A stretch of 64,000 nt of DNA from Gammaproteobacteria bacterium. GTDB taxonomy: Bacteria; Pseudomonadota; Gammaproteobacteria; Pseudomonadales; Azotimanducaceae. Position 1 is the stretch's first letter, and every line of letters begins with the position of its first letter. This document shows, piece after piece, positions 22,042-36,508 of the stretch. The translations under genes were made by a program, and so were the position numbers. Below the pieces are notes generated by a model. It was not told where the DNA came from. It ran no database searches and saw only the letters and a list, made by a program, of their open reading frames with translations. The DNA lies in contig JAPOVV010000115.1 in the NCBI GenBank assembly GCA_026707945.1, positions 434,001 to 498,000 on the forward strand. The letters are read 5' to 3'.

Positions 22042-22133
22042 CTTCTATAGTCGAGTGGGCGTCACGTACTAGCACACTCGTATTAAGCAAGTCGACCGAC
22101 GGTCTAGCTACGTTCGGTTGACCCTATAATCGT

Positions 22134-22216
22134 TGAGTCGGGGTACCTCCTTCGGTTGAGACGCGACAGCGAACCCGTTGAACCTGATCCGGCTAATACC
22201 GGCGTAGGGAAACATT

Positions 22217-22217
<1 letters not shown>
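22134..22217 (+). promoter_or_regulatory. TPP riboswitch (thi box) upstream of thiC
   Basis: The conserved aptamer runs GGGGTA, then TTGAGA (22157-22162), ACCCGTTGAACCTGATC, the GGCTAATACCGGCGTAGGGAA core and the following ACATTCCCC. P2 can form between CGGG (22139-22142) and CCCG. It is a standard TPP sensor (Rfam THI element). The expression platform lies directly behind it. TATAAT at 22125-22130 may be the -10 of its promoter, but no good -35 was seen. Confidence 0.93.
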
Positions 22218-24136
<1,919 letters not shown>

Positions 24137-31415: not shown

Positions 31416-33465
31416 ACTCGCGATCGACATCGGTGGTACGTTTACCGATGTCGTACTCGAATGCGGTGAGGAGCAATTCACGCGGAAAGTTCTCACGTCG
31501 CACGATCAACCGGCTGACGCCGTGTTGCGTGGAATCCGGGAGCTTTTTAGCGAGACGGAGGTCTCCTCCGATTCGATTTCGTTAGTTCTGCATGGTACGA
31601 CGCTGGCTACGAACGCGATCATCGAACGACGAGGAGCAAGAACGGCGCTCCTCACGACCGAAGGTCATCGTGACGTCCTCGCGATGGCGTTCGAAAACCG
31701 ATTCGAGCAGTACGACGTCAATATTGAACGACCAGAGCCGCTCATCCCTCGCTACTTACGGATTCCAGTCTACGAACGTATGGGTCCGGAAGGTGTGCCT
31801 TTGCGAGCGTTGGACCGAGTTTCAGTAGATGACGCGATCGAGACGTTGAACCGCGAGAACGTTGAGAGCGTAGCCGTCGGATTTCTTCATTCATATACGA
31901 ATAGTGCACATGAAGACGCCGTCGCAGAACAGCTAGCAAAGGCGCTACCCGACGTAGCACTTAGCCTGTCTTCGCAAGTTTGTCCGGAAATCCGTGAATA
32001 CGAGCGGTTCTCGACGACCTGCGCTAACGCATATGTACTGCCATTGATGGCAACATATCTACACGATCTCTCGGAGCGGATGCAGGCGATAGGGATTCAT
32101 TGCCCATTTCTCGTGATGACCTCGAATGGTGGCTTGACGACGCTAGCTAACGCGGTCAAGTTTCCAATCCGATTAGTCGAGTCAGGACCTGCAGGAGGCG
32201 CTGTTCTAGCAGCCTGGAAAGCACGGCAGCTTGGTGTTTCGAAAGCGCTCTCATTCGACATGGGCGGTACGACCGCGAAGATATGCATGATCGATGAAGG
32301 TGCGCCATTGCGCTCTCGCTCGTTTGAAGTCGATCGAAGATACCGTTTTAAGAAGGGCAGTGGGTTACCAGTCCGTATTCCAGTGATTGAAATGGTCGAA
32401 ATAGGCGCAGGAGGTGGATCAATCGCCCATGTTGATCAGTTAAAAAGGGTTCGCGTCGGACCGGAGAGTGCAGGGTCCGAGCCTGGACCCGCCTGCTACG
32501 GGATCGGTGGTGACTCGCCAACCGTTACCGATGCGGATGCTGTAATGGGTCGGTTAGAAGCAGGCCGTTTCGCTGGTGGTCAAATGACGCTTGACTTGGA
32601 CGCAGGCAAGCACGCGATTGTTTCTCACATACTTCGTGATTCACGAGAAAAACCTCACGACGCGGCTCGTGCGATCGCCGAAGTGGTCGATGAAAACATG
32701 GCTTCGGCCGCGCGCGGTCACGCAAGCGAATGGGGTAAAACGGTTGCTGAACGGGTCTTGATTGCGTATGGCGGTGCAGCTCCGCTTCATGCAACGCGAC
32801 TTATAAGCAAACTGAACTGTGACTATGCACTCATTCCTGTTGGCGCAGGTGTCGGCTCAGCGCTCGGTTTTTTGCGATCTCCGATCGCATACGAAGTTGT
32901 CCACAGTAAATACATGCGCTTATCGACATACGACCGGGAAACAGTTGCACGAATAATCGACCGAATGCATGCTGAAGCTAAATCTGTTGTGTCGCAGGCA
33001 GTGAATGAGCTTGAGGTACACGTTTCCGCAACCGCGTATATGCGTTACGTGGGTCAGGGTTACGAAATTAGCGTGCCCCTAGATCTGGAGAACCTGTCGC
33101 TCGATCAGATAAGATCAGCCTTTGAAGTCTCATACGAGACGCTGTATGGTCGCTTGTTACCAAAGTCGGACATCGAGGTTATGAGTTGGACGTTGACTCT
33201 GGCAACGGTCGCGGAGGAACCGACGCGACTAAATTCTGCGATAGAACTTGAACGATTCAACGATGCTTGTCGCGAACAAGCGCTGACGGAGCTTGATATG
33301 GAATCAGTAGCTCGGTGTATCGACCGTGAGAATCTGAAACCAGGCCATCATGTGTTGGGACCAGCTTTGATTAGCGAGCGACACACTACAACGTTGGTGC
33401 CAACAGGATTTGAGTTGGTTGTAAACCGAGCATATGACTTGATCGTACGGCGGTGTGTCGCATGA
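31405..33465 (+). CDS. hyuA: Hydantoinase A / 5-oxoprolinase A-type subunit
   Basis: ATP-dependent amidohydrolase subunit that opens hydantoin or 5-oxoproline rings together with HyuB. 686 residues. It starts with the actin-like ATPase motif LAIDIGGTFTDVVLE, then HGTTLATNAIIERRGARTA, SNGGLTTL, ESGPAGGAVLA and SFDMGGTTAKICMID. The start is TTG at 31405, inside the CHY gene. The subunit pair is encoded in tandem (ATGA overlap). The exact substrate is not evident. Confidence 0.9.
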   Translation: MTNRLAIDIGGTFTDVVLECGEEQFTRKVLTSHDQPADAVLRGIRELFSETEVSSDSISLVLHGTTLATNAIIERRGARTALLTTEGHRDVLAMAFENRFEQYDVNIERPEPLIPRYLRIPVYERMGPEGVPLRALDRVSVDDAIETLNRENVESVAVGFLHSYTNSAHEDAVAEQLAKALPDVALSLSSQVCPEIREYERFSTTCANAYVLPLMATYLHDLSERMQAIGIHCPFLVMTSNGGLTTLANAVKFPIRLVESGPAGGAVLAAWKARQLGVSKALSFDMGGTTAKICMIDEGAPLRSRSFEVDRRYRFKKGSGLPVRIPVIEMVEIGAGGGSIAHVDQLKRVRVGPESAGSEPGPACYGIGGDSPTVTDADAVMGRLEAGRFAGGQMTLDLDAGKHAIVSHILRDSREKPHDAARAIAEVVDENMASAARGHASEWGKTVAERVLIAYGGAAPLHATRLISKLNCDYALIPVGAGVGSALGFLRSPIAYEVVHSKYMRLSTYDRETVARIIDRMHAEAKSVVSQAVNELEVHVSATAYMRYVGQGYEISVPLDLENLSLDQIRSAFEVSYETLYGRLLPKSDIEVMSWTLTLATVAEEPTRLNSAIELERFNDACREQALTELDMESVARCIDRENLKPGHHVLGPALISERHTTTLVPTGFELVVNRAYDLIVRRCVA

Positions 33466-35117
33466 GCACACTATCCGACCTCCAGCGACAGCTCGTATGG
33501 GATCGCTTGTTGGCGGTCGTTGAAGAGCAAGCGCAAACGCTTATGCGTACGGCGTTCTCGACGGTAGTGCGAGAAGCTGGCGATCTTTCCGCTGGGGTAT
33601 TCGATACGCAGGGCAGGATGATTGCGCAGGCCGTAACAGGTACACCGGGGCACGTGAACGCAATGGCTGCATCCGTGGGTCATTTTCTCGAACGCTATCC
33701 AATCCAAAGCATGCACTCCGATGATGTATTGATGACGAATGATCCGTGGTTGGCGACCGGACACTTGAACGACTTCACTGTGGTGTCTCCGGTGTATTAC
33801 CGGGATCAACCCGTGGCGCTATTTGCGTCAACCAGCCATATCGCGGATGTAGGCGGGAGAGGCTTTGGTCCCGACGCGAACGACGTGTTCGAAGAGGGCA
33901 TTCGAATCCCTGTAATGCATTTATTCCGAGCAGGTGAGCGAAACGATGCACTAATGGAAATCCTGACGGCTAATGTCCGCGACCCGGTCGTGGCAGAAGG
34001 AGATCTATATTCGCTCGCTGCTTGTAATCATCATGGGAGTCGCCAGCTCATTGACATGATGGTCGAGTTCGGGTTGGATTCGCTTGACGAAGTTGGAGAG
34101 GAGTTACTGGGGCTATCACAAGCGGCCGTCGAGAAAGAAGTCGAAACGCTACCAAACGGAACATACCATCAAAGTATGAGGGTAGACGGTTATAACGAAC
34201 CAATCGACATAAAGTGTGCATTGACCATTGAGGATAGCTCGATCGATATTGATTTCACCGGTTCCTCGCCGATCTCTCGACACGGTATCAACGTACCGCT
34301 TACCTACGCACAAGCCTATGCGTCATTCGGTGTGCGGTGCTTGATTGGCAACGATGTGCCGAACAACGCGGGTTCTCTAAAACCAATCTCAGTACGTGCG
34401 CCCGAAGGATCGATTCTTAATGCGCAACCGCCAGCCGCTGTATCAGCGAGACACGCACTCGGTCAAATGTTGCCGGACGTCGTAATCGGCGCACTTGCGC
34501 AGGTTCTTGATAACGACGTACCCGCGGAGGGCGCTTCGTGCATCTGGAATCCGGTGTTGATGAACAGCAATTTGCGGGACGGTAACGTACCCGACGCAGA
34601 ATTCGTGATCAACCCAATTTTCAATGGTGGTACGGGCGCACGTGCGACGAAGGATGGTCTCTCGACCACCGCATTTCCGTCAGGCGTTCGCACGACGCCG
34701 ACCGAAATCAATGAAGTCACTTCGCCTTTAATTTTCTGGAAACGCGAATTCAAACCAGACTCCGGGGGAGCGGGTCGTCTACGAGGTGGACTAGGTCAGA
34801 CCATTGAGATTGAACATGCGCACGGCGCAGGGTTTTCGATCTCCAAAATGTTTGAGCGCGTTGTTCACCCAGCTCAAGGTCGTGATGGCGGACATGACGG
34901 CGCACGAGGTCGAGTAGGAATTGTTGACGGGCAGGAATTCCGCGGCAAAGGTAAGGAGTCCATTCCGGCGGGCGCAACATTGATCATGGAGACGCCGGGC
35001 GGTGCAGGTATTGGGTCACCGGTCGATCGGGATCCTGCGCTAGTTGACTCTGATTTACGTGAAGGCGTGATATCTGCCAACGTTGCGGAGTCGATATACG
35101 GCCGAAAATCGGAGTGA
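33462..35117 (+). CDS. hyuB: Hydantoinase B / 5-oxoprolinase B-type subunit
   Basis: Partner of HyuA, 551 residues. Conserved blocks include SDLQRQLVWDRLLAVVEEQ, REAGDLSAGVFDTQG, TPGHVNAMA, DVLMTNDPWLATGHLNDFT, FASTSHIADVGGRG and a C-terminal PGGAGIGSPVDRDP. The frame runs back to 33453, but the ATG at 33462 overlaps the hyuA stop (ATGA). The stop lies 4 bases before the 3' end of the tRNA-Leu on the other strand. Confidence 0.92.
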   Translation: MSTLSDLQRQLVWDRLLAVVEEQAQTLMRTAFSTVVREAGDLSAGVFDTQGRMIAQAVTGTPGHVNAMAASVGHFLERYPIQSMHSDDVLMTNDPWLATGHLNDFTVVSPVYYRDQPVALFASTSHIADVGGRGFGPDANDVFEEGIRIPVMHLFRAGERNDALMEILTANVRDPVVAEGDLYSLAACNHHGSRQLIDMMVEFGLDSLDEVGEELLGLSQAAVEKEVETLPNGTYHQSMRVDGYNEPIDIKCALTIEDSSIDIDFTGSSPISRHGINVPLTYAQAYASFGVRCLIGNDVPNNAGSLKPISVRAPEGSILNAQPPAAVSARHALGQMLPDVVIGALAQVLDNDVPAEGASCIWNPVLMNSNLRDGNVPDAEFVINPIFNGGTGARATKDGLSTTAFPSGVRTTPTEINEVTSPLIFWKREFKPDSGGAGRLRGGLGQTIEIEHAHGAGFSISKMFERVVHPAQGRDGGHDGARGRVGIVDGQEFRGKGKESIPAGATLIMETPGGAGIGSPVDRDPALVDSDLREGVISANVAESIYGRKSE

Positions 35118-35120
35118 ATC

Positions 35121-35419
35121 TGGTGCCCGAGGCCGGAGTCGAACCGGCACGGATTAACTCCGAGGGATTTTCGTACCACTACGGCTTTCGCCGCCGACTA
35201 ATTTCGTTCGTGGTCTGGACTTTCTCTTCACCATAGTTTCGAACCGTAGGTGGAGGCCGTCAAGTCTCTACACTTCCCGCTCGATTGAGCGATTTAGCTC
35301 GGGATTGCCAGTCGATCGACGAAGGTTTCCCCGAATTTGACCTCATTCACAACGACAGTTTCCTATCATGTGCTCAAGCTTGTTAAGTCCCTTGCGTCTA
35401 CCAATTTCGCCACTCGGGC
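35121..35419 (-). tRNA. tRNA-Leu(UAA) gene interrupted by a group I intron
   Basis: 5' exon 35419-35385 (35 nt) and 3' exon 35171-35121 (51 nt with encoded CCA). Spliced, they give an 86-nt class II tRNA: acceptor GCCCGAG/CTCGGGC, D-loop GGCGAAATTGGTAGAC, anticodon arm AGGGA-CUUAAAA-UCCCU with anticodon UAA, long variable arm CGGA-GTTAA-TCCG, and T arm GCCGG-TTCGACT-CCGGC. The interruption lies exactly between U34 and A35, the site of the cyanobacterial and plastid tRNA-Leu intron. Without intron recognition tRNA finders may miss it. Confidence 0.93.
35172..35384 (-). ncRNA. Group I intron in tRNA-Leu(UAA) anticodon loop
   Basis: 213 nt, preceded by U and ending in G as group I introns do. 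Core elements in order on the minus strand: TTCGGGGAAACC, the P element GGCAATCCCGAGC, the Q/R element GGGAAGTGTAGAGACTTGACGG, and the S element AAGAGAAAGTCC; GACTT and AAGTC pair as P7. It ends GGCGGCGAAAGCCGTAGTGGTACG before the exon. From memory these blocks match the Anabaena tRNA-Leu intron nearly word for word (subgroup IC3). No homing endonuclease ORF fits in it. I could not fix the P1 pairing with certainty. Confidence 0.92.
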
Positions 35420-35482: not shown

Positions 35483-36376
35483 TCACGTAACGATATCGGT
35501 CCTGTCGTTGACACGTTGGCGATTTACCACATATAACCCGAGGAAAATCATGCAGATGCCTATGAATGCAGTGTAGTGGATTGACTCCCCGAGGATTGTG
35601 TATATCAATATGAGTGAGATCATCGGCGAAAGAAATATCAGTTGGCTCAACGTTGCGACACTTGATGTCGTCGACATCGCACGTTGCCACAGCAAGAAGG
35701 CGAACCCCATTTCGAGTAAACCAATCCAGGCGCCGTACCCAAAGTTCGACCAAATTAACCTCGGAAAACCTTCCGTAAAGTAACAGAGAATAGTTAGTAG
35801 AGGAACTGCGACTGTAAAGCCGTACCACATGAACCACCATGGTTCCAGTCGTACCGTAACGCTCCAGATCCAGTAAATTGCCCAAACTAGCGTACTTGCT
35901 AACGCAAGTCCGATCCCCACAGGATCAAATCCAAGTGCGCTGGTTAGCTGACCTTTGGTAACAAGCAATAGTACGCCGAAGTAACCTACCAAAATACCAA
36001 TGAGCGTGCTGCGGTTTAGCTTTTGTCGCAACATCGGAATCGCAAGTAATGCGGTGACAATCGCCCAGGTGTAGTTCAGAGGCTGTGCGACATGCGCCGG
36101 CAGCAAGTCGTATGCAGTAAGTAGGACGATGTAATAGAGCAGCGGGTTGAGGAGTCCGAGTAAGCTTGCTCTTGCGGCGTGTTTTGTCGCCCGAGGTTGA
36201 GAAGGCAACACCACGCAGCAGATGGAAAACAGAACCCAAGAGAAGCAACAACCAATCCACAACAGTTGAATCGGTTCCATGCTTCGCAAGCCAAGTTTGA
36301 AGCCCACCGCGACGGTGGACCACATCAGCACAGCAGCAAATCCCACTAACATGGGATTGCGAACGGTTATCAGCAT
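35483..36376 (-). CDS. EamA/DMT-family transporter
   Basis: An inner-membrane protein of about 297 residues with roughly ten hydrophobic helices in two EamA repeats. The first repeat begins VGFAAVLMWSTVAVGFKLGLR and includes LNYTWAIVTALLAIPMLRQKLN; the second begins GIGLALASTLVWAIYWI and ends with FLSPMISLILIYTILGESI. Members export metabolites or amino acids; the substrate here is unknown. ATG at 36376 preferred over a TTG at 36391. It is divergent from the peroxiredoxin gene. Confidence 0.88.
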   Translation of the reverse strand: MLITVRNPMLVGFAAVLMWSTVAVGFKLGLRSMEPIQLLWIGCCFSWVLFSICCVVLPSQPRATKHAARASLLGLLNPLLYYIVLLTAYDLLPAHVAQPLNYTWAIVTALLAIPMLRQKLNRSTLIGILVGYFGVLLLVTKGQLTSALGFDPVGIGLALASTLVWAIYWIWSVTVRLEPWWFMWYGFTVAVPLLTILCYFTEGFPRLIWSNFGYGAWIGLLEMGFAFLLWQRAMSTTSSVATLSQLIFLSPMISLILIYTILGESIHYTAFIGICMIFLGLYVVNRQRVNDRTDIVT

Positions 36377-36508
36377 GGTACTGGATAACAACAGCTACTA
36401 ACTGGAAAGTAGAATCCTCGCCGTGCGAATGTCTGGTTTATGCGTTCACGATTGATCGCTCTTTGACAAGCGACATTCCGAATCCGATTCAAAATTCGAG
36501 AGGACTCC

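Follow-up and report, generated by a model that had tools for sequence, protein, structure and literature searches.

A group I intron in the tRNA-Leu(UAA) gene of a gammaproteobacterial genus, probably a vertically inherited member of a mobile proteobacterial and phage lineage

The stretch of 64 kb analysed here (the window) carries on its reverse strand, at 35121-35419, a tRNA-Leu(UAA) gene with an encoded CCA, which a group I intron of 213 nt divides between U34 and A35. We consider it highly probable that this intron is an endonuclease-free, vertically inherited member of a mobile lineage of proteobacterial and phage tRNA-Leu introns, and that it splices to leave a normal tRNA. On this account the intron would fold within the transcript and bind guanosine, the transcript would be cut after U34, paired as U.G with the internal guide, and U34 would be joined to A35, giving a normal tRNA that reads UUA codons. 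The lineage would be that of the proteobacterial tRNA-Leu(UAA) introns, some with an HNH homing-type gene in P6 and some residing in phages or plasmids; the window's copy would have lost, or never had, the endonuclease gene and would now pass vertically within the genus.

With introns allowed, ARAGORN reports tRNA-Leu(taa) at c[35121,35419] with a 213-nt intron after base 35, and one further tRNA only in the 64-kb window. Without the intron option it misses the unspliced gene, so that tRNA-Leu(UAA) may seem to be missing from such genomes. The earlier note had given the gene the same coordinates, strand, exons and intron that ARAGORN in intron mode and Rfam now give it, and had proposed that the exons fold as tRNA-Leu; the 86-nt joined exons, submitted alone, are indeed read as tRNA-Leu(taa). 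All parts of the gene lie on the reverse strand. The 5' exon of 35 nt (35385-35419) ends in ...AGGGACUU, including U34, and is the same or similar in 17 other genomes of the genus. The 3' exon of 51 nt (35121-35171, ARAGORN) begins with A35 and encodes the CCA. Between them the intron (35172-35384) has a short P6 hairpin without an endonuclease gene and G as its last base, its assignment resting on the RF00028 match, an alignment of 20 Leu introns and pair counts in 83 unique introns. An internal guide, UUGAG (35373-35377), pairs with the exon/intron sequence CUU/AA to form P1, placing a U.G pair at the splice site. From the Rfam match, the sequence and the pair counts, the P/Q-type block GGCAAUCCCGAGC, which supplies the 3' strands of P5 and P4, lies at 35297-35309, the R-type block GUGUAGAGACUUGACGG, which supplies the 5' strand of P7 and runs towards the 3' strand of P3, at 35257-35273 and the S-type block AAGAGAAAGUCC (3' strand of P7) at 35217-35228; these are the P, Q, R and S blocks of the earlier note, placed in transcript order at 35309-35297, 35273-35257 and 35228-35217. 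The gene is flanked by a hydantoinase B/oxoprolinase gene (33453-35117, forward strand; Pfam PF02538, E 6e-143), a neighbour that marks the locus in the genus, and on the opposite side by an EamA-type transporter gene (35483-36391, reverse strand; PF00892, E 6e-35). Elsewhere in the window, Rfam places a TPP riboswitch at 22129-22228 on the forward strand (59.4 bits).

The Rfam check of the intron's class returned RF00028 at 35394-35195 (reverse strand) over the full model (1-253), with 50.6 bits and E 6.4e-10; this agrees with the group I assignment made earlier and lies only 0.6 bits above the curated cut-off of 50. The subgroup is putatively IC3. The intron's 3' end is a G and its 5' splice site a U34.G pair in P1. 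A terminal G, which the extraction pattern demanded, is shared by the whole set of 258 introns, named, unnamed and viral. The fold was assessed in 83 unique introns from chromosomal loci, none longer than 300 nt, mostly gammaproteobacterial and including the window's own. Core helices were paired in 94.7% of cells, which count sequences and not events, against 30.6-46.2% with the partners slid by one or two columns, a comparison biased in favour of the helices because they were drawn on the window's own intron. P3, P4, P5 and P7 were paired in 100% of cells and P1 in 98.3%, the weaker helices being P2base (78.5%), P6a (87.1%) and P9 (88.4%). Both sides had changed in 56 to 171 cells in P2, P3, P6a, P8 and P9a; P7 is uninformative by covariation since it is invariant. 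No damage was seen in the core of the window's intron and, because the helix pairs are kept over the 83 introns, we judge from these comparisons that it very probably splices.

The genome itself offers a second argument. The assembly (G000; 3.80 Mb, 117 contigs, 96% complete) carries the split gene on a 550-kb contig. Scoring of 150 of its 191 candidates gave 44 tRNA matches, which include one other Leu(UAA) gene, intact and on contig C3 (10,563 bases), and no second chromosomal one. Since the split gene is the sole chromosomal Leu(UAA) gene among these matches and UUA codons are in use (58 in the 4140 codons of ten window genes), it is very probably spliced. The search for a second intact tRNA-Leu(UAA), which the earlier note had held could tell against splicing, did find one in the assembly, but on a phage-like contig and without a full encoded CCA: of five C3 proteins tested, two match phage exonuclease families and one a phage DNA methyltransferase family, and its tRNA shares about 72% identity with the window's exons. 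This intact gene would allow the split gene to be a decayed remnant, with decoding left to C3. We hold that to be very improbable, given the small size (10.5 kb) and phage-type genes of C3, its incomplete CCA and the strong conservation of pairs in the intron core; moreover, none of the other 17 genomes in the genus (77-97% complete) contains the uninterrupted-gene pattern, which in G000 occurs on C3 only.

Group I matches were obtained in 36 of the 97 genomes of a relatives search, in which at most 18 candidates were scored per genome and absences are accordingly weak. They include all 18 genomes of the window's genus, its own counted, each with one match of about 190-236 nt that corresponds to a tRNA-Leu(UAA) intron of 212-250 nt in the same place; such a recurrence excludes chance. 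The hydantoinase B gene adjoins the split gene at ten of the 17 other loci of the genus. An eleventh locus (L078), shortened by its contig, retains the EamA and peroxiredoxin genes, and the remaining six have a tRNA-Leu(tag) neighbour that is common to four of the ten. We read this as one locus handed down vertically within the genus. The same synteny leads us to reject an assembly or binning artefact, in which the contig would come from another organism; the draft is in 117 contigs and its bin holds at least one phage-like contig, but the gene sits on a 550-kb contig with its locus and neighbours repeated in other genomes of the genus, and the chance of such an artefact is negligible.

Outside the genus, the uninterrupted-gene pattern was found in 60 of 79 genomes. 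Among the 19 others, three have a split gene (G028, G082 and G023, the last being L436), and in 16 of the 79 neither form of Leu(UAA) gene was seen. In G023, which belongs to another genus of the same family, hydantoinase B again lies beside the split gene; in G055, its congener, the gene is uninterrupted. The intron tree groups 16 of the 18 introns of the window's genus with one outsider (L189) at 95/93 and leaves L092 and L094 outside; a single clade for all 18 was not rejected by the AU test (p 0.202). With the genus not recovered as one clade and the deep branches of the tree poorly resolved, the genus may have gained the intron more than once.

The intron extends well beyond this family. 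In a class sample of 369 genomes, with at most five candidates scored in each so that absences are again weak, 56 gave a group I match; the same intron at the same site in tRNA-Leu(UAA) was present in 15 of them besides G000, from 12 families, two (L150 and L151) being labelled otherwise by ARAGORN and assigned by reading the tRNA halves. The gammaproteobacterial setting reported for the split gene is borne out. Among named genomes, a pattern that demanded the proteobacterial-type 3' exon AAAATCCC found 114 stretches, 107 of them with both exons; by record title 109 are Pseudomonadota, two Chloroflexota and one each Planctomycetota, Bacteroidota and Nitrospirota. Named carriers include Steroidobacter gossypii, S. 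agaridevorans, two Peristeroidobacter species and Methylohalomonas lacus, as well as the alphaproteobacterium Hoeflea marina. Over all the searches, the script found no 5' exon for ten of 274 3' halves, and nine long introns whose cores it did not cut out (L151, L223, L275, L314, L318, L333, L376, L384 and L412) were left out of the trees. Several split tRNAs are misnamed by ARAGORN (Gln for Ile, Tyr for viral Leu, Stop for the E. coli plasmid gene described below), and these were relabelled from the loop. The family and class samples also hold nine other split tRNAs (L099, L142, L149, L108, L110, L113, L119, L164 and L168), all with unsure labels: three are read as Arg(CCU), and ARAGORN's names for the rest include Asp, His, Lys, Leu(cag) and Thr.

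This distribution bears directly on origin. The earlier note had offered two explanations for the intron in this genome, a lateral transfer signalled by its oddity there, or a poorly known native lineage, and the second is supported by the wide occurrence in Gammaproteobacteria. The oddity itself is not supported, with the intron in 18 of 18 genomes searched in the genus and lying among proteobacterial introns in the large tree. The insertion site is the cyanobacterial one, as had been claimed, and the arrival in the genus of the intron alone, or of the entire tRNA gene, from a cyanobacterial or plastid source would account for a shared gene and site. An AU test did not reject Anabaena and the genus as one clade (p 0.435, with one cyanobacterial sequence), and both trees place Anabaena beside two viral introns, so that phages could link both groups; that single sequence is provisional and sits on a long branch. 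Its identity to the window's intron, 60.6%, falls below the medians for named chromosomal Leu introns (68.9%; 80 rows, duplicates removed) and viral introns (64.4%; 85 rows), the value for Ile introns being 49.5% (52 rows). The exons, furthermore, are of resident type, an uninterrupted gene from the same family (L427) being 93% identical. No cyanobacterium was listed in the scan of named genomes, where the AAAATCCC pattern favours proteobacterial exons; plasmids gave no match to the provisional Anabaena sequence, nor viral contigs any to a cyanobacterial-type pattern. Transfer from cyanobacteria is on balance unlikely, while an old cyanobacterial root of the lineage is possible.

A source closer at hand would be the tRNA-Ile(CAU) intron of the same genomes, copied into tRNA-Leu. 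A group I intron in a tRNA read as Ile(CAU) occurs in 17 of the 18 genomes of the genus, the window's own counted and with none seen in G003. The Leu and Ile introns of this genome are only 48.9% identical, Leu-type and gammaproteobacterial Ile introns are split by a 100/99 branch, and union of the Leu introns of the genus with three of its Ile introns was rejected (p-AU 0.005). On the tree and the AU test we reject this origin, which we regard as extremely improbable. The Ile(CAU) intron of this genome (L001; G000:C47:216079-216332) is its second group I intron; a third, at 1501-2157 of L002 (G000:C37:2644-3300), reads as lying in a 23S rRNA gene and carries a LAGLIDADG endonuclease gene (PF00961, E 2e-26).

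The preferred reading, of a mobile proteobacterial and phage lineage, draws on the frequency of the intron in viruses. A viral collection yielded at least 120 stretches, and in 118 of the 120 listed the script found both exons. These 118 tRNA genes hold 92 distinct introns, and 97 of the 118 split tRNAs have the long variable arm of tRNA-Leu. Another 20 (L299, L300, L322 and L323 among them) combine a UAA anticodon with a short variable arm, unlike bacterial tRNA-Leu, and viral L348 has no clear T arm or acceptor stem. Lengths above 1 kb given by the script for viral L318 and L412 were discarded as mis-joins, ARAGORN giving 196 nt for both. Among the matches listed, many viral split genes sit among other tRNA genes, and three viral contigs (L330, L388 and L411) carry two or three split tRNA genes per array, Leu with Arg, Thr, Met or others by ARAGORN's labels. 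A complete split tRNA-Leu(UAA) gene is present in Agrobacterium phage Atu_ph07 (490 kb; recorded host A. tumefaciens C58), and another, containing an HNH frame, in a 595-kb record of an uncultured phage. Gordonia phage Daredevil (L178, 2380-2691) has a similar intron at the same loop position in tRNA-Lys(UUU), which suggests that a guide for CUU alone may fix the site. Phages appear to be carriers of the intron. In the large intron tree, though, most viral introns (80 of 87 rows) lie apart from chromosomal ones, so that donation by phages to this genus is no more than conjecture.

Plasmids carry it too. A conjugative Bradyrhizobium plasmid has a split Leu gene, and an Escherichia coli plasmid (L173, 2495-2793) a complete tRNA-Leu(UAA) gene split by a group I intron. 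Matches covering 80% or more of the latter gene occur in 1257 of 72,556 plasmids and in 624 of the 5426 E. coli genomes, and 1225 of 1280 plasmids matching it are at least 99% identical, which points to the spread of one segment and not to many gains. None of the 15 matches listed for plasmids, nor of the 15 listed for E. coli genomes, is annotated with the gene. In all three plasmids opened (two from E. coli, one from Acinetobacter) an aac(3)-II resistance gene is found at a distance of no more than about 1 kb, and the split gene may mark an environmental source of the aac(3)-II segment. We take tmrB to be the name of the gene neighbouring aac(3)-II, and found no paper in the open-licence literature that pairs tmrB with a group I intron. 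Since these plasmid and phage loci do not reach the Rfam gathering score, their group I status comes from the aligned core.

Mobility is further suggested by endonuclease genes in related introns. In introns of about 670-810 nt, P6, which separates the Q and R blocks, holds a reading frame some 155 codons long, and a CPNCH motif identified an HNH frame, whole or in part, in 35 introns (32 distinct). The 22 chromosomal frames comprise 20 in antisense and two in sense, the latter from Anaerolineales; nine of the 13 viral frames are in sense and four in antisense. All three frames tested match PHROG 10822 (HNH endonuclease; E 8e-48 to 1e-30), and five of six match Pfam HNH models at E 0.001 or less, three of them above Pfam's cut-off; one query returned no matching solved structure. 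Five proteins tested from four viral endonuclease-bearing loci all match phage families (DNA polymerase, helicase, ligase, exonuclease and ATPase). A protein tree unites the chromosomal antisense genes, 19 of them distinct, with support of 0.88, adds viral L323 to them at 0.91, has low support deeper down, and sets the Anaerolineales genes next to a sense phage gene; in the intron tree viral L323 and L396 lie near the chromosomal group. These placements look like a sign of exchange between phages and bacteria, its direction left aside. Five chromosomal frames (L215, L234, L235, L237 and L246) are broken or shortened, and the window's intron, at 213 nt with a short P6 hairpin, has no endonuclease gene; a homing cycle would be expected to leave such a mixture of intact, decaying and missing genes, and homing is, to judge from sequence, plausible.

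The enzyme-free copy could also have been kept for a reason. The HNH enzyme of phage introns may cut uninterrupted tRNA-Leu(UAA) genes at the DNA of the anticodon loop, whether these belong to a rival phage or to the host, and the intron of the genus would then be a retained shield and not a neutral passenger. The phage's own copy would be protected by its intron, and gain of an intron, even one lacking the enzyme gene, would remove the target site and make the bacterium immune; the target in the host chromosome is often a single-copy gene, and a needed one. We put this forward as a speculation, with a low chance of being right.

Literature places the window's intron in company. The earlier note held that proteobacterial tRNA introns are known in tRNA-Arg and tRNA-Ile; that list is incomplete, since the portion of PMC4853749 available to us describes a Beggiatoa tRNA-Leu-TAA interrupted by putative group I introns and a Thiomargarita gene similarly interrupted, by a type left undetermined there, besides interrupted tRNA-Arg-TCT in both. 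In view of these genes the window's intron by itself is not a new kind but one already reported; it is the phage-borne and HNH-bearing forms that make the lineage a variant. In the parts accessible to us, PMC4033280 lists tRNA group I introns in cyanobacteria and in alpha- and beta-proteobacteria, PMC8450103 extends the record to tRNA-Ile2 of Acidovorax and Burkholderia, PMC8172020 mentions group I introns in tRNAs of its circularized genomes, and PMC3984707 (2014) states that every phage intron observed to date lay in a protein-coding gene. A search of the open-licence literature, including the available portions of PMC7886860, PMC12908238, PMC13096335 and PMC3706429, found no report of group I introns in phage tRNA genes. 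Set against the reviews, the intron of tRNA-Leu(UAA) proves to be spread widely through Gammaproteobacteria, to be common among viral contigs, to occur in a sequenced Agrobacterium phage and, in near-identical copies, to sit on more than 1000 plasmids. Copies borne by phages and plasmids, some with an endonuclease gene, offer a concrete route for the movement of a tRNA intron between phyla, and their distribution makes testable the question of whether such an intron was inherited or transferred.

Among known systems, the cyanobacterial tRNA-Leu intron (Anabaena, by the provisional sequence) shares with the window's intron the gene, the anticodon-loop site and similar core blocks; it differs in host group, in the P9.0 strand (AGTCCAGACC here, AGTCCAATTC in Anabaena) and in overall sequence, at the 60.6% identity given above. 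The Azoarcus tRNA-Ile(CAU) intron is also a small tRNA intron with a similar core, in another tRNA and at another loop position, and its sequence, likewise provisional, falls on a long branch among Leu-type phage introns in both trees. A tRNA-intron endonuclease whose host is Synechocystis resembles the HNH-bearing relatives in that its gene lies in a tRNA intron and is aimed at the anticodon region; the tRNA there is a different one, and the frames described here match HNH families and also occur in viral contigs. The interrupted tRNA-Leu-TAA genes of Beggiatoa BOGUAY and Thiomargarita, for which the part of PMC4853749 available gives neither intron type nor phylogeny, are also gammaproteobacterial, in the same tRNA and putatively group I, and are found in other hosts.
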